A DNA stretch of 53,303 bases from Lachnospiraceae bacterium (lineage in GTDB: Bacteria > Bacillota > Clostridia > Lachnospirales > Lachnospiraceae): assembly GCA_017473905.1 (NCBI GenBank), contig JAFUJA010000009.1, forward strand, positions 1 through 53,303, read 5' to 3'. The position numbers and the translations under genes are program-made. Position 1 is the stretch's first letter. Each line of letters starts with the position of its first letter. Positions 20,722-34,517 of the stretch are shown one piece after another. The notes under the pieces were generated by a model, which was not told where the DNA came from, ran no database searches, and saw only the letters and a list, made by a program, of their open reading frames with translations.

Positions 20722-20750
20722 TTGACTTCTTGTTTTTTGAAGAGTAAAGT
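20722..20750 (+). promoter_or_regulatory. Promoter of the branched-chain amino acid operon
   Basis: TTGACT at 20722-20727 and TAAAGT at 20745-20750 are separated by 17 bp. The -10 box is imperfect, which fits an activated promoter. Transcription would begin near 20757 and read about 530 nt of leader before the first gene. Confidence 0.6.
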
Positions 20751-20787
20751 ATGACACAAGTTAAAAACAAATTAAATATTTTTAAAA

Positions 20788-20960
20788 GCTGTGACGAAGA
20801 ATGGTCAAGGTGATAAAACATTTCAGAGAGCCGATGGCTGGTGTAAATCGGCATGTAAAAGTCTTGTCTTCTCCCTTCTGAGCTGGGAGCTTGAAGCGAA
20901 AGTGTGTAGGGCGACCCGTGTATGCTACGTAAGTGCATAGGAGTTAGTTGACTTCGAAAG
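20788..20960 (+). promoter_or_regulatory. T-box Stem I/Stem II copy 1, specifier CTC (Leu), without antiterminator
   Basis: T-box parts are seen in order. GACGAAGA near 20793 is the kink-turn strand. AGAGAG at 20825-20830 and CTGGTGTAA in the distal loop closed by CCGAT/ATCGG follow. The specifier CTC is at 20871-20873, then CCTTCTGAGC, and then the pseudoknot-type block from 20915. The last block repeats in copy 2 (21099 onward) with 31 identical bases. No UGGNACC element follows before copy 2 begins at about 20965. Register of the specifier comes from aligning the shared TCCCTTCTGAGC of the two copies. Confidence 0.75.
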
Positions 20961-20964
20961 AAAA

Positions 20965-21200
20965 GGCGTTGATGAAGACGGAATCTGCAACGAATTTCAC
21001 AGAGAGTCGGGGATGGTGTGATCCCGGCAAAGGACTGTAGAACTTCCCATCCCTTCTGAGCCGGAAGCCCCAAAGGTTTTAACACCCAGTAGGCGTTTCC
21101 CGTGTATGCTACGTAAGTGCATAGGAGTTGATAGACTTCGAAGAGGTGGCGGAGTGTTTATATCCGCAATTTGAGTGGTACCGCGAGTGATAAATTGTAT
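20965..21200 (+). promoter_or_regulatory. T-box riboswitch copy 2, specifier ATC (Ile), with antiterminator
   Basis: This copy is complete. GATGAAGACGG begins it and AGAGAG is at 21001-21006. A GGTG-bearing distal loop is closed by CGGGGA/TCCCGG. The specifier ATC is at 21049-21051, 48 nt after AGAGAG (46 nt in copy 1). The Stem II/pseudoknot block runs from 21099, Stem III is GCGGA/TCCGC near 21149-21166, and the T-box TGGTACCGCG is at 21176-21185. TTGAG at 21171-21175 can pair with CTCAA at 21211-21215 to form the antiterminator. UGGU fits the ACCA end of tRNAs with A73, which includes tRNA-Ile and tRNA-Leu. Confidence 0.85.
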
Positions 21201-21205
21201 TTACA

Positions 21206-21248
21206 CCCGTCTCAAAGCAATATTTAATGCTTTGAGACGGGTTTTTTT
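21206..21248 (+). terminator. T-box-controlled leader terminator
   Basis: The arms CCCGTCTCAAAGCA (21206-21219) and TGCTTTGAGACGGG (21228-21241) form a 14-bp stem followed by seven T residues. The 5' arm overlaps the sequence needed for the antiterminator, so the two structures exclude each other. Uncharged tRNA binding should favour read-through into ilvA. Confidence 0.93.
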
Positions 21249-21287
21249 ATTGTTTCAAAGCAAAAACGCAAAAGGAAAGGTCAAAAA

Positions 21288-22502
21288 ATGAAAAAAAGAA
21301 AGGTGAAAAAAATGTTATCTCTCGACAAAGTTTTTAATGCACAAACAGTACTAAAAAATATCATTCGTGAAACGAACGTAGTAAGGGCTTACGGTATTGC
21401 TCCGGATTGTGAACTATATTTAAAACCTGAAAATCTACAAATTACAGGTTCTTTTAAGGTAAGAGGGTCAACATATAAAATTGCCATGCTTTCTGAAGAA
21501 GAGAAGAAAAAAGGTGTAATCGCCTGTTCCGCAGGAAATCATGCGCAAGGTGTTGCTCTGGCAGCAACAAAGAACGGAATCAAGTCATTAATCTGTTTGC
21601 CGGATTCAGCGCCTATTTCCAAAATCGAAGCAACCAAAGGTTATGGCGCTGATGTGTGTCTGGTGGAAGGCTGTTATGACGATGCTTATCAAAAAGCTTT
21701 GGAGCTGAAAGATAGCGAAGGTTATACCTTTGTACATCCTTTTGACGATGAGAATGTAATTGCAGGTCAGGGAACCATTGCACTTGAGATACTGAATGAA
21801 CTGGATAACATTGATGCAATCGTAGTTCCCATTGGCGGAGGTGGTCTCATCTCGGGAATTGCTTATACCGCAAAACAAATAAGACCTTCCGTGAAGGTGT
21901 ACGGTGTACAGGTTGCCGGTGCTCCAAGCATGTATAACTCCATAAAAGACGGTGAAATCGAAAGTCTGGAGTTCGTATCTACCATTGCAGATGGCATTGC
22001 AGTAAAAAAACCGGGTGATAACACCTACGCACTTGTAAAAGAATATGTGGATGAAATTGCTCTTGTTACCGATGATGAGGTCGCAAGTGCCATTTTAGCC
22101 CTTATGGAAAAGCAAAAAATGATTGCGGAAGGCGCAGGAGCTACAGCAGTAGCCGCGGTGATGTTTCATAAATTTGATTTAAAAGGCAAACGGGTAGTAG
22201 CAGTTGTATCCGGCGGTAATATTGACGTTACCAGCCTCTCCCGGGTAATCGACAGAGGACTTTTGAATTCAGGCCGTTCCTCCAGCTTATTGATTGAATT
22301 AATTGATAAACCCGGACAGCTGAAAGATATATCACGTATCATTGCCGATTGTGGCGGCAATGTAACAGGTGTTCATTATGAAAAAGGTAACACCGAAAGT
22401 GTCAACGGCTGTTTCCTGCGTATCGAAATGGAAACGAAAGATTATGACCATGTTAATCTGATCACACAGTCTCTGCGTGGTGAAGGATTCAAAATAGTGT
22501 AA
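21288..22502 (+). CDS. ilvA: Threonine ammonia-lyase, medium form with ACT domain
   Basis: This PLP enzyme converts threonine to 2-oxobutanoate and ammonia, the first step towards isoleucine. The 404-residue frame starts at ATG 21288 (AGGAAAGG upstream). ATG 21312, which gives MLSLDKVF, is equally well placed and closer to relatives, so the true start may be there. PLP lysine lies in GSFKVRGS, the phosphate loop is GGGGLISG, and the C-terminal 80 residues (about 322-404) are an ACT domain (LLIELIDKPGQLKDISRII). It is the first gene after a T-box leader that senses Leu and Ile, so a biosynthetic role is favoured over the catabolic one. Confidence 0.92.
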   Translation: MKKRKVKKMLSLDKVFNAQTVLKNIIRETNVVRAYGIAPDCELYLKPENLQITGSFKVRGSTYKIAMLSEEEKKKGVIACSAGNHAQGVALAATKNGIKSLICLPDSAPISKIEATKGYGADVCLVEGCYDDAYQKALELKDSEGYTFVHPFDDENVIAGQGTIALEILNELDNIDAIVVPIGGGGLISGIAYTAKQIRPSVKVYGVQVAGAPSMYNSIKDGEIESLEFVSTIADGIAVKKPGDNTYALVKEYVDEIALVTDDEVASAILALMEKQKMIAEGAGATAVAAVMFHKFDLKGKRVVAVVSGGNIDVTSLSRVIDRGLLNSGRSSSLLIELIDKPGQLKDISRIIADCGGNVTGVHYEKGNTESVNGCFLRIEMETKDYDHVNLITQSLRGEGFKIV

Positions 22503-22520
22503 TGATTGAAAGGAGTTAAA

Positions 22521-22901
22521 ATGATGAGTAGCAAAGTTCAGACCAACAAGGCACCGGCAGCAATCGGACCGTATTCACAAGCAGTAGTGGCAGGAAATCT
22601 TATTTTTACTTCCGGACAAATTCCCCTAAATCCTGAAAACGGACTGTTGGAAGGAAAGAACATTACAGAGCAGACACATAGGGTTTGTAAGAATTTGGAA
22701 GCAGTTTTATCTGCTTCAGGAAGTTCACTGAAAAGTGCCGTAAAAACAGTATGTTTTCTGAGTAATATGGCGGATTTCACAGCTTTTAATGAAGTTTATG
22801 CACAGTATTTTACCCAAAAACCTGCCCGCTCCTGTGTGGCAGTCAAAGAACTTCCCAAAGGAGCTTTGGTCGAGGTGGAAGTCATAGCAGAAAAGGAGTA
22901 A
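22521..22901 (+). CDS. ridA: RidA family enamine/imine deaminase
   Basis: RidA hydrolyses the reactive enamine that IlvA releases from threonine or serine, and so protects PLP enzymes. The product has about 126 residues from ATG 22521 or 22524; AAGGAG at 22510-22515 fits both. Family motifs are IGPYSQAVVAGNLIFTSGQIPL, the segment around KTVCFLSNMADFTAFNEVY, and the conserved arginine in KPARSCVAVKELPKGALVEVE. It lies directly after ilvA, which is the substrate source, and before leuA. Confidence 0.95.
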   Translation: MMSSKVQTNKAPAAIGPYSQAVVAGNLIFTSGQIPLNPENGLLEGKNITEQTHRVCKNLEAVLSASGSSLKSAVKTVCFLSNMADFTAFNEVYAQYFTQKPARSCVAVKELPKGALVEVEVIAEKE

Positions 22902-22909
22902 AAATTATA

Positions 22910-24583
22910 ATGGATTCGAGTAAATATCAAGTGGGATATTTTCCTGTAGATAAAAAATATAAAAAATGGGTGGACAAAGATCATATTGAAAAACCGCCTG
23001 TTTGGTGCAGTGTAGATATGCGAGACGGTAATCAAAGTCTTGTGATTCCTATGAGTCTGGAAGAAAAACTGGAATTTTATAAGGTTCTTCTGGAAGTAGG
23101 ATTTAAAGAAATCGAAGTTGGTTTCCCTGCAGCAAGCGAAACAGAATATGAATTCTTACGGACTTTGATAGATAATAACATGATTCCTGAGGACGTAACC
23201 GTACAGGTATTGACCCAATGCCGTGAGCATATCATTCGTAAAACCTTTGATGCCTGCAAAGGTGCACCCAGTGCAATCATTCACTTTTATAATTCTGTCA
23301 GTGTTGCACAGAGGGAACAGGTTTTCAAAAAATCAAAGGAAGAAATTAAGCAGATTGCTGTGGATGGCGCAAAGCTTGTAAAAAAGCTGGCCGGTGAATA
23401 CGAAGGTAATTTTCGTTTTGAATATTCTCCCGAATCTTTTACGGGAACGGAACCTGAATATGCTTTGGAAGTTTGTAATGCAGTATTGGATGTATTAGAA
23501 CCCAGTGCAGATAATAATGTCATTATAAATCTGCCTGTAACGGTAGAAATGAGTCTACCCCATGTTTACGCTTCACAGGTTGAGTACATGAGTGAAAATC
23601 TCAAATATCGCGAGTTTGTAACACTTTCCCTTCATCCTCATAATGACCGCGGTACCGGTGTTGCAGATACGGAGCTGGCACTTTTGGCAGGTGCCGACCG
23701 TGTAGAAGGTACGTTATTCGGAAATGGTGAAAGAACAGGAAATGTTGATATTATTACACTGGCACTGAATATGTATTCTCATGGTGTAGACCCGAAGCTT
23801 GATTTTTCAAATATGAATTATCTTGTGGAAAAATACGAGCGTTGTACCCGTATGCGTGTTTATGAAAGAGCGCCCTATGCAGGAGCATTGGTATTTGCAG
23901 CTTTTTCCGGTTCCCATCAGGATGCCATTGCAAAGGGTATGAAGTACAGAACAAAAAATAAACTTCATGAATGGAATGTTCCTTATATTCCCATTGACCC
24001 CAAGGACATTGGCCGTACATATGATGCAGATGTAATCCGCGTCAATTCCCAGTCCGGTAAAGGCGGCATAGGTTACCTTTTAGAGCAGAGTTTTGGTTAC
24101 AATCTGCCGCAAAAAATGCGAGAGCATTTTAGTTATCTTTGTAAAAATATTTCCGACCATGAGCATAAGGAACTGAAACCTGACGAAGTATTTGATATTT
24201 TTGTCAACAATTATCTGAATCTGGATAGTGGTATTGAGATAACGGATTTTGATTTTATGCGTGAGAATGAAGCAGTCAAGATTAATATCACTTTTATGAG
24301 AAACGGAGAAGAAACCGAGCTGGAGGCGGAAGGAAACGGTTCACTGAGTGCCATTAATAATGCATTGAGTGAATATACCGGAGAAGATTATACATTACAG
24401 GTATTTACACAACACAGTATGCAGGGACAGGGTTCTCATAGTGTTGCCGCCTCTTACATTGGATTGGAAACCCAAAATGGCACGATGTTCTGGGGTGCCG
24501 GTACGGATACGGATGTTATTACTGCAAGCACAAAAGCACTTTTTAGTGCATTCTACAATATGACCAAAGGAGATGTTGAATAA
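22910..24583 (+). CDS. leuA: 2-isopropylmalate synthase
   Basis: It condenses acetyl-CoA with 2-oxoisovalerate, the committed step to leucine. The protein has 557 residues and belongs to the longer LeuA subgroup. The DRE-TIM catalytic start is [13 protein letters not shown], and the metal-binding HxH is in [21 protein letters not shown] and a GGIGYLLEQ segment follow. The C-terminal part (about 430-557) is the LeuA allosteric domain that binds leucine, so feedback inhibition is expected. It starts 8 nt after ridA and its stop overlaps the leuC start (TAATG). Confidence 0.95.
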
Positions 24584-25842
24584 TGGGAATGACTTTAACA
24601 CAAAAAATTCTCGCTGCTCATGCCGGACTTGAGAAGGTAGTAGCGGGACAACTGATAAATGCCAAGTTAGATATTGTACTTGGTAACGATATTACCACAC
24701 CTGTTGCGGTAAATGAATTTAAAAAAGCAGGTTTTGAATCGGTATTTGATAAAGACAAAGTGGCAATTGTACTTGACCATTTTGTTCCCAATAAGGACAT
24801 CAAAGCAGCCGAACAGTCCAAAACCTGTAGAGAATTTGCATGTTTCCATTGTGTCAGTCATTTTTATGATGTGGGAAAAATGGGGATTGAACATGCGCTT
24901 CTCCCGGAACAGGGTGTTGTGACCGCAGGCGATTGTATTATCGGTGCTGACAGCCACACTTGTACCTATGGAGCACTTGGTGCTTTTTCCACCGGTGTGG
25001 GTTCTACCGATATGGCAGCAGGTATGGCAACCGGTATAGCCTGGTTTAAAGTGCCTTCGGCCATTCAGTTTCATCTGACCGGCCAACTGCCTTCCAATTG
25101 CAGCGGTAAGGATGTGATTCTTACCATTATCGGTATGATTGGCGTGGATGGTGCTCTTTATAAAAGTATGGAATTTGTAGGTGATGGTGCCCACGGACTT
25201 TCAATGGATGACCGTCTTTGCATTTGTAATATGGCAATAGAAGCCGGTGCCAAAAACGGAATTTTCCCTGTGGATGATGTAACGTTGGAGTATTTAAAAG
25301 GCAGAAGTGAAAGAAAGCCCGTTGTATATGAAGCGGATGAGGATGCGGAATATGAAAAGGTTATTCATATTGATCTTTCCAAGATTGTTCCCACTGTTGC
25401 CTGCCCGCACCTTCCGGAAAATACACATCCTGCAACCGAGTTACATGACATTAAAGTAGATCAGGTAGTCATAGGTTCCTGCACAAACGGCAGAATGGAA
25501 GATATGGAAGCAGCCTATCACATTTTAAAAGGTAAAAAGGTTGCGGACGGCATTCGTTGCATTATTATTCCCGGCACAATGCAGATTCTTCGGGAATGTG
25601 TGGAACGTGGCTGGTACACCGCTTTTATTGATGCAGGCGCAGTTGTTTCGACACCTACCTGCGGTCCCTGCCTTGGGGGATATATGGGTATTCTTGCAGC
25701 GGGTGAGCGTTGTATTGCTACTACAAATCGTAACTTTGTCGGTCGTATGGGACATGTAGAAAGTGAAGTATATCTGGCTTCTCCCCATACTGCAGCTGCC
25801 AGTGCTTTGACAGGCTATATTACGGAATATAAGGAGGCTTAA
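24583..25842 (+). CDS. leuC: 3-isopropylmalate dehydratase large subunit
   Basis: LeuC with LeuD isomerises 2- to 3-isopropylmalate through a [4Fe-4S] cluster. The 419-residue subunit has the aconitase-fold substrate motif [23 protein letters not shown]. The cluster cysteines are in [13 protein letters not shown] and in PTCGPCLGG (two cysteines). The length matches the 420-residue homoaconitase-like class. Translation starts at ATG 24583, overlapping the leuA stop, with AGGAG upstream; ATG 24589 is a second in-frame possibility. It is followed by leuD after 3 nt. Confidence 0.95.
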
Positions 25843-25845
25843 AAG

Positions 25846-26343
25846 ATGAATACACAAGGAAAAGTTTTTAAATATCCGGATAATGTGGATACGGATGTTA
25901 TTATTCCCGCGCGTTACCTGAATACTCCCAATGCCAATGAACTCGCGCTTCATTGCATGGAAGATATTGATGCAGATTTTGTCAAAAAAGTTCAGGCAGG
26001 CGATGTTATGGTTGCAGGCTGGAATTTTGGTTGCGGTTCGTCCCGTGAACATGCTCCGCTGGTAATTAAAACCTGTGGTACCGGTTGTGTCATTGCCAAA
26101 AGCTTTGCAAGAATCTTTTACCGCAATGCCATTAATATTGGTCTTCCGATTTTGGAATGTGAGGAAGCAGCAGAAGAAATTAATGCAAATGATGAGGTTA
26201 AGGTGGATTTTGATACCGGTGTGATCACCGATATTACAACCGGTAAAACTTACAAAGCCCAGCCTTTTCCGCCTTTTATCCAGAATATTATTAAAAGCGG
26301 CGGATTGTTAAAATCCCTGAAAGAAGGTGAAAAAAATGGTTAA
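25846..26343 (+). CDS. leuD: 3-isopropylmalate dehydratase small subunit
   Basis: This is the swivelling domain that completes the LeuC active site. The 165-residue subunit shows the family motifs [21 protein letters not shown] and [18 protein letters not shown]. It starts at ATG 25846 behind AAGGAGG, 3 nt after leuC. The last codons overlap the leuB start by 8 nt, which indicates coupled translation. Confidence 0.95.
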
Positions 26344-27403
26344 AAATATCGCAGTAATTCGTGGTGACGGTATTGGTCCCGAAATCGTGGAACAGGCGTT
26401 AAATGTACTTAATAAAGTTGCGGAGCTTTACGGACATACTTTTCAGTATACCGATGTAGATATGGGCGGATGTGCCATTGATAAATATGGAGATCCGTTG
26501 CCGGAAGCAGAATTGCAAAAATGCGTGAATTCTGACAGCGTTCTGCTTGGTGCGGTAGGAGGCGAAAAGTGGAATGATGTGCCGGGACATATGCGTCCTG
26601 AAAAAGGGTTGCTTCGTCTTCGTGCCGGTATGGGTGTTTATTCCAACAATCGACCTGCAAAAATTTGGAAACAATTAAGCGATGCAACGCCGTTAAAAAA
26701 ATCCATTGTGGATCAGGGCAATGATATTATCATTGTTCGAGAATTAATTGGTGGCATCTATTTTGGCGAACACAAAACAGAAGGGGATATTGCCATTGAT
26801 GTTTTAAAGTATAGTGAAAGCGAAATTGAACGCATCGGAAGAATCGGTTTTGAGACTGCAAGAAAGAGAAATAAAAAGCTTTGTTCTGTAGAAAAAAGCA
26901 ATGTTTTAGATAGCAGCCGTCTTTGGAAAAAGGTAATGCACCACCTGGCAGAAGAGTACCCTGATGTGGAGCTTTCCGATATGCTGGTTGATAACTGTGC
27001 CATGCAAATTGTAAAAAATCCTGCACAGTTTGATGTTGTGGTAACCGAGAATATGTTTGGCGATATCCTGTCGGATGAAGCTTCCATGATTACCGGCTCT
27101 ATCGGTATGATTCCTTCTTCCAGTCTGGGTAGTACTACCTGCGGTTTATATGAACCGATTCACGGTTCTGCTCCCGATATTGCAGGCAAAGATGTTGCCA
27201 ATCCGATTGGTACTATTCTTTCAGCGGCAATGATGCTTCGTTTCAGTTTTGATATGTCAAAAGAAGCCGATGCAATTGAAAATGCGGTATCTGCTTATTT
27301 GGATGCAGATTATCGTACTGCTGACATTATGAGTGAAGGAAAGAGACTTGTCGGTTGTAGAAAATGTGGTGAGCTGATTATCAGCAACCTTAGAAAGGAG
27401 TGA
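26336..27403 (+). CDS. leuB: 3-isopropylmalate dehydrogenase
   Basis: It oxidises and decarboxylates 3-isopropylmalate to 2-oxoisocaproate with NAD+ and a divalent metal. The protein has 355 residues from ATG 26336, which follows AAGGTG; GTG 26327 would add three residues. Motifs are [17 protein letters not shown], the [16 protein letters not shown] substrate arginine segment, [16 protein letters not shown] with the metal aspartates, and [23 protein letters not shown]. It is preceded by leuD and followed after 4 nt by ilvB. Confidence 0.95.
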
Positions 27404-27407
27404 TGTT

Positions 27408-29081
27408 ATGCTTCTTTCCGGCGCAGATATCATTGTTAGAACTTTAATTGAACAAGGTTGTGATACAGTTTTTGGTTATCCGGGAGGACAAATTTTAAAT
27501 GTATACGACAGCTTATATAAATATCAGGACGAATTGAATCATATCCTGACAGCACATGAACAGGGCGCCGCTCATGCTGCAGACGGGTATGCAAGAACTA
27601 CAGGAAAAGTTGGTGTTGTAATATCCACATCCGGTCCGGGTGCTACCAATCTGGTAACCGGAATTGCAACCGCTTATCTGGATTCCATCCCTATGGTGGC
27701 TATTTGCGGCAATGTTCCTACAACACAAATTGGTACGGACAGTTTTCAGGAAATTGATATTACCGGTGTTACATTGCCGATTACAAAACATAATTATTTT
27801 GTAAGTGATGTTTCCGAATTGGCAGATACCATCCGTGAAGCTTTTAAGCTTGCAAAGTCAGGCAGGCCCGGACCGGTGTTGATTGATGTTCCGAAGGACG
27901 TTCAAATTGCAAAATGCGAATATGAAACCGGTTTTCCGGCAGAAAAGGAAGAAGGCTATGCAGCCAAGGATGTTCGAATTGAAGAAGCAGCTAACATTAT
28001 TCATTCTGCCAAACGTCCGTTTATTTATTTTGGTGGCGGTGTGATTACGGCAGATGCGGAGGATGAGGTGCTGGCTCTTGCGGAGAAAATAGACGCCCCT
28101 ATCGGTTGCTCCCTTATGGGACTTTCCGGAATTCCTACTGACCATCCGAGATTTCTGGGTATGCAGGGAATGCACGGACATTACGCATCTTCCATGGCTA
28201 TGCATAATGCTGACTTGATTCTCTCTCTGGGTGTCAGATTTAATGATCGTGTTACCGGTAATCGTGCTAAATTTGCTACCGGTGCAAACATTATCCACAT
28301 CGATGTGGACGGATCTGAACTTTGTAAAACGGTAAATGTTGTCTGTGGATTACGTGGTGATGTAAAACTGACACTTCAAAAATTATTATTGCTTCTCAAG
28401 CAGGATAGCAAACCGGACTGGATGGCAAAAGTGAATGCTTTTCGTCAGGAAGAAAATGATTATTTGGATAATCGGGAAGGTTTAACGCCCCGTAAAGCGA
28501 TTATGACGCTCAATAAACACTTAGGTGAAAATACTGCTGTTTGTACCGATGTGGGGCAGCATCAGATGTGGTCGGCACAAAATCTGATTTTTAAAAAACC
28601 TCGCAGATTTGTTTCCAGTGGAGGTCTCGGTACCATGGGATTTGGTTTCGGTGCCGCAATAGGTGCATCATTTGGTACAAAAGAACGAAGTGTTCTGGTT
28701 ACCGGTGACGGAAGCTTTGGAATGAGCTTAAATGAGCTTGCAACTGCTGTTACATATAATGTTCCCGTTGTGGTGCTGATTATGAATAACGGAGTACTTG
28801 GTATGGTACGGCAATGGCAGACGTTGTTTTATGAAAAGCACTATTCCAATACTGTGCTGAACCGAAAAACCGATTTTGTTGCTTTTGCACGTTCCTTTGG
28901 AGCGGAAGGAGAAGCTGTACATACACCGGAAGAACTGGATGGGGCGCTTGAAAAAGCATTCAAGCACAACGGACCATATATTATTGATTGCAAAATCGAT
29001 AAGGATGAATTCGTATTGCCCATGTTACCTCCGGGGGGCAGCATGGATGATATTATCGTGAAGTTGGAGGTGGAATCATGA
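27408..29081 (+). CDS. ilvB: Acetolactate synthase catalytic subunit
   Basis: This TPP enzyme joins two pyruvates, or pyruvate with 2-oxobutanoate, at the shared first step of valine/leucine and isoleucine synthesis. It has 557 residues. The catalytic glutamate lies in LTAHEQGAAHAADGYAR, and the TPP/Mg site is GDGSFGMSLNELATAVTYNVPV with VLIMNNG. The FAD/TPP core segment VGVVISTSGPGATNLVTGIATAY is also present. The ribosome site AAAGGAG precedes ATG 27408, and the stop overlaps the regulatory subunit start by 4 nt. Confidence 0.95.
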   Translation: MLLSGADIIVRTLIEQGCDTVFGYPGGQILNVYDSLYKYQDELNHILTAHEQGAAHAADGYARTTGKVGVVISTSGPGATNLVTGIATAYLDSIPMVAICGNVPTTQIGTDSFQEIDITGVTLPITKHNYFVSDVSELADTIREAFKLAKSGRPGPVLIDVPKDVQIAKCEYETGFPAEKEEGYAAKDVRIEEAANIIHSAKRPFIYFGGGVITADAEDEVLALAEKIDAPIGCSLMGLSGIPTDHPRFLGMQGMHGHYASSMAMHNADLILSLGVRFNDRVTGNRAKFATGANIIHIDVDGSELCKTVNVVCGLRGDVKLTLQKLLLLLKQDSKPDWMAKVNAFRQEENDYLDNREGLTPRKAIMTLNKHLGENTAVCTDVGQHQMWSAQNLIFKKPRRFVSSGGLGTMGFGFGAAIGASFGTKERSVLVTGDGSFGMSLNELATAVTYNVPVVVLIMNNGVLGMVRQWQTLFYEKHYSNTVLNRKTDFVAFARSFGAEGEAVHTPEELDGALEKAFKHNGPYIIDCKIDKDEFVLPMLPPGGSMDDIIVKLEVES

Positions 29082-29584
29082 AACGATATACTGTAGCAGT
29101 ATTGGTGAAAAACCAGTTCGGCGTACTGAATCGTGTAACCAGTATGTTTCGCCGCCGACAGTTTAATATCAGTGCTTTGACTGTAAGTGAGACAGAAACA
29201 AGCGAGTTTTCCCGTATTACCGTTGTATTCAGCGGAGAAGAGACAGCCAAACAACAGCTTGTGAATCAGCTCTATAAATTACCGGATGTCTGTTCTATTA
29301 AGGAATTTTGTGAAGACAACTCGGTAAGTTGTGAATTGCTTTTAATTAAAATGGAGAATGAAGTAAAATCCCGGGATGATATCCGTAACGCTGTAGATGC
29401 TTTCGGTGCCGTTACCGTGGATTACTCCAAAGATTATATGATGTTCCGTCTTGCGGACACTACAAGAAGAATCGATGATTTTATCAATTTAATGAGAGAT
29501 TATAAAATTCTCGAAATCTGCCGGACCGGCAGCGTATCCCTTGAAAAGGGAAGTACAACCATTCGTCAAATAATAAATTTATAA
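29078..29584 (+). CDS. ilvN: Acetolactate synthase regulatory subunit
   Basis: This small subunit binds valine and activates and inhibits the catalytic subunit. The 168-residue protein begins with an ACT domain (YTVAVLVKNQFGVLNRVTSMFRRRQFNISALTVSETE, residues 3-40, continuing to about 75). The C-terminal half corresponds to the IlvH dimer domain (LLIKMENEVKSRDDI and RICRTG-type end). It overlaps ilvB by ATGA, giving balanced expression of the two subunits. Valine itself has no specifier in the leader, so its control may act mainly here. Confidence 0.95.
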   Translation: MKRYTVAVLVKNQFGVLNRVTSMFRRRQFNISALTVSETETSEFSRITVVFSGEETAKQQLVNQLYKLPDVCSIKEFCEDNSVSCELLLIKMENEVKSRDDIRNAVDAFGAVTVDYSKDYMMFRLADTTRRIDDFINLMRDYKILEICRTGSVSLEKGSTTIRQIINL

Positions 29585-29601
29585 AAGAAAAGAGGAAATG
29601 A

Positions 29602-30621
<1,020 letters not shown>

Positions 30622-30635
30622 TGGGAGGTATTTTT

Positions 30636-32291
30636 ATGTTAAAAGAAAATATAGTCAATGGAGTACAAAATGCCCCTCATCGTAGTCTGTTCCATGCGTT
30701 GGGATTGACCGAAGAGGAGCAATCCCGTCCATTGATTGGTATCGTAAGCTCCTATAATGAAATTGTTCCGGGTCATATGAACATTGATAAAATTGTGAAT
30801 GCCGTTAAGTTAGGTGTTGCAATGGCAGGCGGTACGCCCATTGTTTTTCCGGCCATTGCGGTTTGCGATGGTATCGCTATGGGACATACGGGAATGAAGT
30901 ATTCTCTCGTCACCCGTGATCTGATTGCAGATTCTACTGAGGCTATGGCTATGGCTCATGGTTTTGACGGTCTTGTAATGGTGCCAAATTGTGATAAAAA
31001 TGTTCCCGGTCTTCTGATGGCTGCCGCAAGAGTAAATATTCCTACGGTTTTTGTCAGCGGCGGCCCTATGCTTGCAGGTAAGGTAGAAGGCCAAAAAACC
31101 AGTCTTTCCAGTATGTTTGAAGCAGTTGGGGCTTATTCTGCCGGTAAAATATCGGAAGAAAAATTAAAGGAATACGAATGTAAAACATGTCCTACCTGTG
31201 GTTCCTGCTCCGGTATGTACACGGCAAATTCCATGAATTGCTTAACGGAAGCTTTGGGTATGGGTCTTAGAGGAAACGGCACAATTCCTGCAGTATACTC
31301 TGCCCGTATTGAGCTTGCCAAACATGCCGGTATGGCAGTCATGGATATGGTTAAGAAAAATATCCGTCCCCGGGATATTATGACACAAACAGCACTTATG
31401 AATGCACTGACGGTAGATATGGCTCTTGGCTGTTCTACCAACAGCATGCTTCATCTTCCTGCAATTGCCCATGAATGCGGTGTGGAATTGAATTTGGATA
31501 TTGCTAATGAAATCAGTGCAAAAACCCCGAATTTGTGCCATCTTGCTCCTGCAGGAAGGACCTATATGGAAGACTTGGAGGAAGCAGGCGGTGTGTATGC
31601 CGTGATGAACGAGCTGAGCAAAAAAGGTTTGATTAACAGGGATTGCATGACCGTAACCGGCAAAACCATAGGAGAGAATATTTCCGGTTGTGATAATCTC
31701 AATCCGGAAGTTATTCGTTCTATAGATAATCCTTATAGTGAAACCGGTGGTATTGCGGTGTTGAAGGGGAACCTTGCACCGGAAGGAAGCGTAGTGAAGC
31801 GTTCTGCCGTGCTTCCGGAAATGCTTGTTCATGAAGGTCCTGCCCGGGTTTTTGACTGTGAAGAGGATGCACAGGCAGCAATCAATGCAGGTAAAATTGT
31901 AGCAGGAGATGTTGTGGTAATTCGTTATGAAGGTCCCAAGGGAGGCCCAGGCATGCGTGAGATGTTGAATCCTACTTCTGCAATTATGGGAATGGGACTT
32001 GGAAACAGCGTGGCACTTATTACCGATGGACGTTTTAGCGGAGCAACCCGTGGTGCCTGTGTCGGTCATATTACACCGGAAGCGGCATCCGGTGGAGTCA
32101 TTGGCGTGGTAGAAGAAGGCGATATTATAAGTATTAACATACCTGAAAACACAATTCAGTTAAAAGTAGAGGAATCGGTTCTTGCGGAGCGTATGAAAAA
32201 TTTTGTTCCGAAACAAAAAGAACTTTCCGGCTATTTGAAGCGCTATGCGGCACTTGTTTCAGGTGGTGCATCGGGGGCGATTTTGAACTGA
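30636..32291 (+). CDS. ilvD: Dihydroxy-acid dehydratase
   Basis: It dehydrates the dihydroxy acids to 2-oxo acids with an Fe-S cluster. The protein has 551 residues from ATG 30636, preceded by GGGAGG at 30623-30628; ATG 30621 overlaps ilvC and lacks a ribosome site. The cluster cysteines lie in [10 protein letters not shown], in the motif [19 protein letters not shown], and in an earlier [32 protein letters not shown] near the C-terminus is also typical. It is followed, 1 nt later, by a DUF815 ATPase gene. Confidence 0.95.
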
Positions 32292-32292
32292 T

Positions 32293-33456
32293 ATGAATGA
32301 TTTAAAAGAAAAGTTAAAAACGTTGTGTATTTTCAGAGAATTACTGAAAGATAAGGTTCTTTCAGCACTATGCACTTATTTTGAAAACCCTGCAGGCTCG
32401 ACGTATGCCGATTTTGTTGCGCAGCTTTATCAGGCGAACGGTGGAAATCTTGGGGAATATATCAAAGAGCTTTGTTTTAATAGCGAAAATATATACGTAA
32501 AAACAATTGGTCTCGGAAAGAATGTTCCCAAATATATGGTATCGTCTCTTCATTCAGAGCTGGATATTCTGCAAGAGGTATCCGAGCTGAACAAGGAAGC
32601 GCTTTGTAAAGGGCTTCCTTATCGTGGATTTTTGCCGGAGTTCACAACTACGGGATTGAGACTCAAAGATATTTATCTGCACAGAGCAGAAAATATAAGC
32701 AAATACGGTTATGGAATTTATGTGGGAAATCGTATGTTTTATGTAGAGAAAGGGGGCAATATTGTTCCCGTTCTGCACCCCGATAAAATATCCCTTTCCA
32801 ATCTTGTGGATTACGAGCGGGAAAGAAAGATTATCCTTGATAACACCAAGGCTTTGCTCAGAGGAAAACCTGCCGCTAACATTCTGCTTACGGGAGATGC
32901 AGGCACCGGTAAATCCTCTACTGTAAAAGCGGTGGCAAATGCCCTTTGGGATGAGGGGATTCGTGTGATTGAAATACGTAAGGACCAGCTTCACGATATT
33001 TCTAAGATTTTGGATGAGCTGTCCGGCAATCCGCTTAAATTTATATTATTTATTGACGACCTTTCCTTTTTGAAAGACGATGATAATTTTAATGCACTTA
33101 AAGCTGTGCTGGAGGGTTCGGTTACGGTAAAATCCCCGAATGTGGTAATTTATGCAACCAGTAACCGCCGACACATCATCAAAGAAAAATTTTCAGACCG
33201 TGAAGGCGATGATGTACACCGTAATGATACCATGCAGGAACTGATTTCCCTGTCCGAACGTTTTGGAATTCATATTACTTTTTCAAAACCGGATAAGGAG
33301 ACTTTTCTTCATATCGTGCATTGTATGGCAGAGGAAAATCATATCGATATGCCTGTGGATGAACTTGACATGCTGGCTGAGCGTTTTGTTTTAGAGCGTG
33401 GCGGAAGATCCGCCCGTCTTGCCCGGCAGTTTATTGATGGATTACTTTCCAAGTAA
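32293..33456 (+). CDS. DUF815 AAA-type ATPase at the end of the branched-chain operon
   Basis: This 387-residue protein has a helical N-terminal half (1-190) and an AAA ATPase half. Walker A is GDAGTGKSS (about 202-210), Walker B is FILFIDDLSFL, and the sensor segment is VVIYATSNRRHIIKE. The pattern 'NVVIYATSNRRHLI' and the ending 'GGRSARLARQFIDGL' are characteristic of DUF815. The function of the family is unknown. It starts 1 nt after ilvD without its own strong ribosome site, so it is likely coupled to the operon. A terminator follows at once. An enzyme chaperone or maturation factor for the Fe-S dehydratases is possible but only inferred. Confidence 0.85.
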   Translation: MNDLKEKLKTLCIFRELLKDKVLSALCTYFENPAGSTYADFVAQLYQANGGNLGEYIKELCFNSENIYVKTIGLGKNVPKYMVSSLHSELDILQEVSELNKEALCKGLPYRGFLPEFTTTGLRLKDIYLHRAENISKYGYGIYVGNRMFYVEKGGNIVPVLHPDKISLSNLVDYERERKIILDNTKALLRGKPAANILLTGDAGTGKSSTVKAVANALWDEGIRVIEIRKDQLHDISKILDELSGNPLKFILFIDDLSFLKDDDNFNALKAVLEGSVTVKSPNVVIYATSNRRHIIKEKFSDREGDDVHRNDTMQELISLSERFGIHITFSKPDKETFLHIVHCMAEENHIDMPVDELDMLAERFVLERGGRSARLARQFIDGLLSK

Positions 33457-33548: not shown

Positions 33549-34436
33549 TTAATTAGAAAATTCCTGTTCTTTTACATAGTCTAAAAATGTTTTCATGCTT
33601 TTAGAAATCCACTTATTTCTATGATAAATAAGCTGCTTCCAGATATCAACGTGTATATCGTACACATCAAGATAGCAGAGGACCCCTGAATCAACGAAAT
33701 CTCTGGTGACAAAATCCGGTAAAAAAGATATCATATTGTTTTCGGCAATCATTCTGGTGATGATGTCGGTTCGACCGATTTCAAGAACAGGAGTTACTTC
33801 CAACGACATTTTTGCAAGCTCCCGGTCCATCACTCGTCTGTAGCCCTGACCGTATTCCGTCAGAATAAAAGGTTCATTGATGATGTCTTTAACGCATAGC
33901 TTTTTGATGCCGGCAAACTTTGAAGCCGTACTGGCAACAAAGTGCAAGGAAAGCGGTTGCTCTTTTGCTATGATATAATCCTTATTATATAAGCGGCTAT
34001 CAAGTGTAATAATAAAATCCGCCTCGTTATGATCAAGCATATTAAGCATCAGTGCCGAGTCTCCGGTGGTAAATCGAATGGAGATGGATGGATACTTTTT
34101 ATGAAAGTCAATATAGTGGGAGTTTATCATATCATCGCATATCGAATCCGGGGTAACAATGTGAATAGACCCTGAAAGTTCTTCTTTGGCACAGCTTTCT
34201 TTAAATTCATCCATTAGTGCACGAACCCCGTGAGCATAGGTAATCAGTTCATGTCCGCGCTCGGTGAGTGTGATTGAGTGGTTGATTCTTTCAAACAGAA
34301 GACAGTCGAGTTCTTCCTCCAGTTGTTTTATTTGAAAAGAAACCGTAGATTGTGAATATCCAAGATGTTCAGCAGCTTTTGTAAAACTTCCCAGCTCGGC
34401 AACATGGATAAAAGTAATTAAATTTCGCAGCTCCAT
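33549..34436 (-). CDS. LysR-type regulator, candidate regulator of the branched-chain operon
   Basis: This 295-residue protein starts at the ATG at 34436, which follows GAGAGGAT; an upstream ATG at 34484 would place 16 extra residues across the operator. Residues 1-60 are a winged helix (MELRNLITFIHVAELGSFTKAAEHLGYSQSTVSFQIKQLEEELD, helix-turn-helix centred on SFTKAAEHLGYSQSTVS). Residues about 90-290 form the effector domain (SGSIHIVTPDSI and EADFIITLDS). The gene converges on the branched-chain operon. Its own 5' end carries a dyad almost identical to one upstream of that operon's promoter. The effector is unknown. CysL/CbbR-like relatives use pathway intermediates, so a branched-chain precursor is plausible. 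Confidence 0.85.
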   Translation of the reverse strand: MELRNLITFIHVAELGSFTKAAEHLGYSQSTVSFQIKQLEEELDCLLFERINHSITLTERGHELITYAHGVRALMDEFKESCAKEELSGSIHIVTPDSICDDMINSHYIDFHKKYPSISIRFTTGDSALMLNMLDHNEADFIITLDSRLYNKDYIIAKEQPLSLHFVASTASKFAGIKKLCVKDIINEPFILTEYGQGYRRVMDRELAKMSLEVTPVLEIGRTDIITRMIAENNMISFLPDFVTRDFVDSGVLCYLDVYDIHVDIWKQLIYHRNKWISKSMKTFLDYVKEQEFSN

Positions 34437-34450
34437 TGTAATCCTCTCTG

Positions 34451-34467
34451 TATCGAAAATCTCGATA
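34451..34467. promoter_or_regulatory. Candidate LysR autoregulatory operator
   Basis: TATCGAAAATCTCGATA is a perfect 6-5-6 dyad containing the LysR-type ATC-N9-GAT box, 14 bp upstream of the LysR start. Its location at or just after the predicted transcription start suggests negative autoregulation. The other copy of the motif is at 20662-20678. Confidence 0.6.
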
Positions 34468-34487
34468 GAAAATAATAAAATCATTTG

Positions 34488-34517
34488 TTTAACTAATGCA
34501 TAAAGAAATTATATAAT
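34488..34517 (+). promoter_or_regulatory. Promoter of the lipoprotein gene
   Basis: TTTAAC at 34488-34493 and TATAAT at 34512-34517 are 18 bp apart. The leader to the ATG at 34666 is about 140 nt. The promoter is divergent from the LysR gene, and the operator dyad at 34451-34467 lies 20 bp upstream of the -35 box, so it might also respond to LysR. Confidence 0.45.

Follow-up and report, generated by a model that had tools for sequence, protein, structure and literature searches.

The DNA analysed here, referred to throughout as the window, is the 53,303-nt contig JAFUJA010000009.1 of a Lachnospiraceae bacterium (assembly GCA_017473905.1). A T-box leader occupies positions 20782–21242, upstream of an operon which we take, from recognition of the sequences and not from a family search, to be ilvA-ridA-leuA-leuC-leuD-leuB-ilvB-ilvN-ilvC-ilvD (table 1). 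The leader consists of two Stem I/Stem II/pseudoknot units with the specifiers CTC and ATC, followed by a single Stem III, T-box, and terminator. As stated in the preliminary description, the two specifiers lie 46 and 48 nt downstream of the first letter of their respective AGAGAG motifs, and the Stem II/pseudoknot region of both units contains the same 31-nt block. Stem III, the T-box, and the terminator were likewise found only once, after the second unit, the first two by the RF00230 alignment and the terminator by the terminator scan. The specifiers fit the leucine and isoleucine genes downstream, an association that holds across relatives (see below). In the window, the antiterminator carries the UGGN of the T-box and competes with the terminator, whose region (21195–21250) folds at -26.7 kcal/mol (z -8.1 vs. 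shuffles). No second terminator-like site was found between 20560 and 21300, and we therefore rejected an arrangement of two complete tandem T-boxes in the window. The possible sigma-70 promoter ahead of the leader is weak, two such sites being present in the region where chance alone would give 1.3. The specifier loop of T-boxes is usually closed by loop-E letters. In both unit types described here, it looks short, and a GG/CC helix seems to close it one base 5' of the specifier. Beyond ilvD, we observed an AAA-type ATPase-like gene (32293–33456), with 57–60% identity to its counterparts in the same-genus genomes G006 and G028.

Table 1. Features of the leader and of the operon in the window
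Feature	Position	Strand	Basis
Possible sigma-70 promoter TTGACT-17-TAAAGT	20722–20750	+	Consensus scan, 9/12; weak
Stem I, unit 1 (Leu)	20787–20884	+	RF00230 alignment; covariation, 29 dual leaders
AGAGAG, unit 1	20825–20830		
Specifier CTC (Leu)	20871–20873	+	CTC or CTG here in all 44 dual leaders
Stem II, unit 1	20885–20914	+	RF00230 alignment
IIA/B pseudoknot block, unit 1	20915–20945	+	31-nt identity with unit 2; helix kept, 29 leaders
Stem I, unit 2 (Ile)	20965–21062	+	RF00230 on 20940–21260, 72.6 bits; covariation
AGAGAG, unit 2	21001–21006		
Specifier ATC (Ile)	21049–21051	+	ATC in 44/44 dual leaders
Stem II, unit 2	21063–21098	+	RF00230 alignment; helix changed on both sides
IIA/B pseudoknot block, unit 2	21099–21129	+	31-nt identity with unit 1; alignment of Ile units
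Stem III, single copy	21149–21167	+	RF00230 alignment
Antiterminator, single copy	21170–21215	+	RF00230 alignment
T-box TGGTACCGCG within antiterminator	21176–21185	+	UGGU bulge at 21176–21179
Intrinsic terminator, single copy	21205–21242	+	Terminator scan; fold of 21195–21250
ilvA, threonine dehydratase, first operon gene	21288–22502	+	ORF; named by sequence recognition
ridA-like gene	22506–22901	+	ORF; named by sequence recognition
leuA, leuC, leuD, leuB	22910–27403	+	ORFs, named by sequence recognition; gene order shared with G006 and G028
ilvB, ilvN, ilvC, ilvD	27408–32291	+	ORFs, named by sequence recognition; gene order shared with G006 and G028

The full RF00230 covariance model matches the window at 20782–21217 (E 2.9e-17, 78.7 bits). 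This score is below the gathering score of 93, which is why Rfam at default settings reports only a tRNA for the window. The best alignment combines Stem I of the first unit with the shared antiterminator and treats the second unit as an insert of about 200 nt; the second unit aligns in turn when 20940–21260 is submitted alone (72.6 bits). Both Stem I regions are thus recognized together with one antiterminator, albeit in separate inputs, and a model seeing the second unit alone, which would have spoken against the dual arrangement, was not what we obtained. Since the Rfam cut-off misses this leader, pipelines relying on it may undercount leaders of this type.

The dual leader recurs in related genomes. 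Among 99 genomes, including that of the window, the nearest leader belongs to G006, with 81% identity over 464 bases, both units, CTC and ATC as specifiers, and an operon with its genes in the same order. The close relatives G028 and G001 have the Ile unit only, and the common promoter region runs directly into it, so that the missing first unit looks like a clean deletion. G028 retains the leu genes, showing that the Leu unit can be missing while these genes stay, and the G001 contig ends ahead of the leu genes. A search for the pseudoknot block GTGNATGCTACGTNAGTGCATAG in a collection of genomes at species level yielded 104 stretches, mostly from ruminant gut MAGs (Clostridia, Oscillospiraceae, Ruminococcus, and Lachnospiraceae). 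Both units with both specifiers are in view in 42 of them, identified by a letter-pattern finder (36), by eye (L141 and L159), or by nhmmer (L077, L084, L093, and L096). A single T-box can be seen in each of 40 of these 42 stretches, which therefore share with the window two sensors with unlike specifiers and a single regulatory domain. The order is Leu then Ile in 41 stretches, and Ile then Leu in L136 (JAFTZC010000025.1). Together with the window and G701 (L166), the dual leaders number 44. Their Ile specifier is invariably ATC, and their Leu specifier is CTC in 42 and the synonymous CTG in two (L061 and L089).

Genome sets were also searched with two letter patterns. A strict and one-directional dual-specifier pattern, whose counts are lower bounds, matched 6 of 391 genomes of the class and, in a phylum sample, 1 of 249 (the window itself; 241 of the 249 lie outside the class). 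Four of the six class matches are T-box leaders and come from four families (the window, G541, G631, and G701); L100 and L106 come from the genomes G541 and G631, so that each of these was counted once. The two others, in G799 and G324, are not T-box leaders and were rejected. The pattern AGAGAG-AGAGAG-TGGTACCG was found in 9 of 397 genomes of the family, of which, judging by the printed letters, the window's alone looked dual; its gap limit misses units spaced by more than 181 nt, as in G006.

In the 37 dual leaders that we measured (the window and 36 from the pattern finder), the units are spaced by 177–191 nt, and this recurrence led us to reject a chance arrangement. TGGNACC is absent from the inter-unit segment of all 37, and the T-box is GTGGTACCGC in all 35 in which it is in view. 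In 10 of the 37, that segment contains at least five consecutive T; when the check was extended to the second specifier, 11 leaders were flagged, and the best hairpin just ahead of such a T run reached -6.8 kcal/mol. True terminators recognized by the same check reach about -20 to -26 kcal/mol, although it missed the terminator in 5 of the 11 leaders. The weakness of the inter-unit hairpins argues, if only weakly, against a first platform, and the sequences of the relatives do not support two complete tandem T-boxes. Three stretches (L067, L071, and L146) were removed from the dual set, because in them an ATC T-box is followed, only after about 2.6 kb, by a second unit with a separate T-box and a GTA (Val) specifier. 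We also observed a leader remnant at a contig end ahead of ridA-ilvB-ilvN-ilvC (L015/L045, G017:C174), in which the 5' half of Stem I runs into a terminator-like stretch devoid of a T-box.

Both units show compensatory changes. We analysed 29 of the 44 dual leaders, a set lacking L136 and the later finds, using structures drawn by hand on the same alignments. In the Leu units, 94.1% of the cells are paired and 9 pairs are changed on both sides; the corresponding values for the Ile units are 98.5% and 12. None of 500 shuffles reached as many compensatory changes for either unit, and slid partners scored far lower. Pairing is weakest in the Leu units above the specifier loop, in a helix with 77.6% of the cells paired and one position unpaired in 15 of the 29 leaders. 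Run unaided, RNAalifold recovered a T-box-like fold from the Ile set; from the Leu set it returned 20 pairs, with few T-box pairs and several that are not T-box pairs. In single-sequence folding, neither Stem I of the window beats shuffles (z 0.07 and 0.57).

The sensor content of the leaders follows the gene content of the operons. We classed 56 of 105 leaders (the 104 stretches and the window) by the recognizable downstream genes, leaving out L070, whose Leu unit runs off the fetched stretch ahead of the specifier, L107, L109, and L115, where contigs end, L166–L168, and leaders with too few recognizable genes. Units were classed by specifier and not by sequence type, and the counts are those of a corrected set, in which an nhmmer check added units missed by the letter patterns. 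Among the 36 runs with ilvA and leuA, 28 leaders are dual, 7 have a Leu-reading unit only, and 1 an Ile-reading unit only. Runs with leuA and without ilvA comprise 2 dual leaders, 9 with the Leu-reading unit only, and none with the Ile-reading unit only; for ilv genes with no leuA in view, these numbers are 1, 0, and 8. One of the nine leaders with a Leu-reading unit only, L140 (JAFUKI010000012.1), stands before a leuA-first operon; its Leu unit is intact, whereas the Ile unit behind it has decayed. Of the 47 runs with leuA, 46 thus have a Leu-reading unit, versus 1 of the 9 others (Fisher p 5.6e-8). Both units precede 28 of the 36 runs that contain ilvA as well as leuA, versus 3 of the remaining 20 (p 1.1e-5), and, among leuA runs, an Ile-reading unit precedes 29 of 36 with ilvA versus 2 of 11 without (p 3.2e-4); the leaders being mutually related, these p values are guides only. 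The counts were sorted by hand after the data had been seen, and a run was taken to be without leuA when its visible part contains none. We noted in addition a few specifier switches: L137 has an Ile-type unit with CTC, and L080 and L147 have Leu-type units with ATC.

According to Stem I identity in the 37 leaders, the Leu and Ile units are, as judged by sequence comparison, distinct types: identity is 69% among Leu units and 76% among Ile units versus 52–53% between the two, and 36 of 37 Leu units, like 36 of 37 Ile units, have their closest neighbour within their own type. The reversed pair of L136 probably arose by a separate duplication and a specifier change, because its two units are so alike (114/137 identical positions versus 82/151 for the units of the window). 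The pseudoknot blocks are slightly more similar within a leader than between leaders (0.918 versus 0.896; 1 of 10,000 permutations), as are, with a smaller effect, the Stem I regions (0.533 versus 0.521; 12 of 10,000). Local homogenization would explain both effects and the 31-nt identity of the window, and shared ancestry of the leaders could add to them. A tree built from 137 units leaves 67 of its 124 inner branches open; holding the 57 Leu-reading units together is not rejected (p-AU 0.125), which is no proof of a clade.

We searched for the tRNAs that the two units would bind. The assembly of the window, about 71% complete, gave 29 tRNA matches, of which the 28 outside the window were read. 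The tRNA-Leu anticodons are AAG, CAG, TAG, and CAA; neither tRNA-Leu(GAG), the partner named in the preliminary description, nor a tRNA with an Ile anticodon was found in this incomplete assembly. The tRNA-Leu(AAG) pattern is present in all seven genus members searched, including G000:C16 (L195), and no GAG was found there. In the window's genus the Leu partner is therefore probably tRNA-Leu with the anticodon AAG, and we infer that CTC is probably read by an inosine-34 tRNA. Elsewhere the originally named partner fares better: pattern matches gave a tRNA-Leu-like sequence with GAG in 11 of 16 distinct dual genomes (17 handles, two of which are one genome), and, in the other five, nothing in four and, in one, a sequence without the appearance of a tRNA. 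The UGGU bulge had been proposed to pair with the A73-bearing ends of both tRNAs. For leucine this fits the window's genome, as A73 could be read off the printed acceptor stems of its Leu tRNAs; for isoleucine it is expected, tRNA-Ile generally having A73.

The 44 dual leaders, the conserved codons, the covariation of both units, the single platform, and the association with operon content lend comparative support to the two-input, one-output reading initially put forward. We consider it likely that the leader is a T-box riboswitch in which two sensors, each with a specificity of its own, share one platform under OR logic. tRNA-Leu would be captured at unit 1 and tRNA-Ile at unit 2, by codon–anticodon pairing. 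The A73-CCA end of whichever bound tRNA is uncharged would then pair with the single UGGU bulge and stabilize the single antiterminator, allowing RNA polymerase to read into ilvA-leu-ilv. As only one tRNA end fits the bulge, the logic should be OR, and a shortage of either leucine or isoleucine would switch on the operon that makes both. For the tRNA held at the distal unit, the proximal unit would form a folded insert, about 170 nt long, that separates the distal pseudoknot from Stem III. Some observations run counter to the two-sensor reading: the Leu unit is absent in G028 and G001, seven leaders of ilvA + leuA runs have the Leu-reading unit only, and dual leaders occur at leuA without ilvA (two) and at ilv genes with no leuA in view (one).

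Alternatively, unit 1 might bind tRNA-Leu and only modulate an Ile switch, by helping its folding, by delaying the polymerase, or by a cooperative, AND-like contact. Unit 1 itself lacks a Stem III and an antiterminator, and unit 2 follows it at about 180 nt, a spacing that varies little in the 37 leaders, and riboswitches with adjacent aptamers are described as cooperative in the accessible part of PMC12452182. Yet a lone Leu-reading unit followed by a similar 3' platform precedes leuA-first operons and so appears able to drive the platform, the reversed order of L136 exists, and a single UGGU bulge cannot pair with two tRNA ends together. We regard a modulatory or cooperative unit 1 as rather improbable. 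Unit 1 could also be the defunct leftover of complete tandem T-boxes whose first platform was deleted. Its apparent clean loss from G028 and G001 would be in line with this, as would the many one-unit leaders among the 104 stretches. A Leu codon is nevertheless kept in 42 of the 104 (in unit 2 in L136), the 29 aligned leaders covary, and the sole decayed unit seen is the Ile unit of L140, before a leuA-first operon, which makes a relic very unlikely.

A different concern is that the contig was misassigned and tells nothing about the genus. The best matches of the operon proteins, some over part of the protein, reach 90–97% identity in the fetched loci of other Clostridia, versus 60–93% in the same-genus genomes G006 and G028. 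The operon and its leader may have been horizontally transferred, or the contig may be misplaced or misbinned; the leader is real either way. The rhomboid-like protein of the contig, with 40–41% identity at best within the genus, settles neither reading. As G006 has the same dual leader and operon order, we give little credence to a misassignment that would make the locus uninformative. A LysR-like gene of the window (33552–34508) also matches other Clostridia better than the fetched genus members. Finally, specifier frames can be ambiguous, the consulted text of PMC7778990 reporting two to three possible frames for several thousand TBDB sequences, but an ordinary Ile T-box with a first unit reading another amino acid, such as serine in another frame, is highly improbable given that the codon varies synonymously between CTC and CTG and that Leu-reading units accompany leuA.

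How does the dual leader compare with known systems? With the canonical T-box (RF00230) it shares a Stem I with specifier, Stem II, the IIA/B pseudoknot, Stem III, the T-box bulge, and the terminator; it differs in having two sensors of unlike specificity before one platform, and the model scores it below the cut-off and reads the second unit as an insert. A two-codon T-box, reportedly described by Saad et al. in 2013, is said to have both codons in one Stem I, one platform, and two tRNAs. The single platform and the two tRNAs are alike, whereas the window has two full Stem I/Stem II units.

Tandem complete T-boxes occur in trp, thrS, and ilv/leu operons of Bacillota, each sensor having its own platform with a logic in which both are needed, as set out in the part of PMC12452182 available to us. 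They resemble the dual leader in having more than one sensor per leader, ilv/leu operons included, and differ from the one platform for two sensors of the window. The glycine riboswitch with adjacent aptamers, described in the same portion of that source, also joins two sensors to one expression platform; it binds the same ligand twice and cooperatively, in contrast to the two different tRNAs that the specifiers of the window point to. The leader of the window probably falls in the class of partially tandem T-boxes, whose modes of action remain unknown according to the accessible text of PMC7583486, which gives no example, Leu/Ile pairing, or mechanism. In what was available of the other sources, tandem models were left for later by TBDB (PMC7778990), T-box duplication and double T-boxes are described (PMC2494555, PMC9413887), and two T-boxes precede one gene in Clostridioides difficile (PMC11477304). 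A pair of Stem I units that differ in specificity and share a platform is not described in the consulted portions of PMC12452182, PMC7583486, PMC7778990, PMC2494555, PMC9413887, and PMC11477304, a set outside which lie the T-box surveys of 2008 (RNA) and 2009 (MMBR).

The dual leaders form a defined and recurring family of partial tandems with a clear OR prediction, which contrasts with the both-needed logic of the complete tandem T-boxes of branched-chain operons in the consulted part of PMC12452182. There is a reasonable case that they constitute a widespread natural OR gate made of RNA only, in which two tRNAs would compete for one antiterminator, the distal one across a folded domain of 170 nt, and whose sensors would have been gained and lost along with the leucine or isoleucine genes of the operon, the arrangement having arisen at least twice. 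They raise a mechanical question as well, namely how a tRNA held by a distant Stem I would reach the antiterminator in a leader of about 460 nt.
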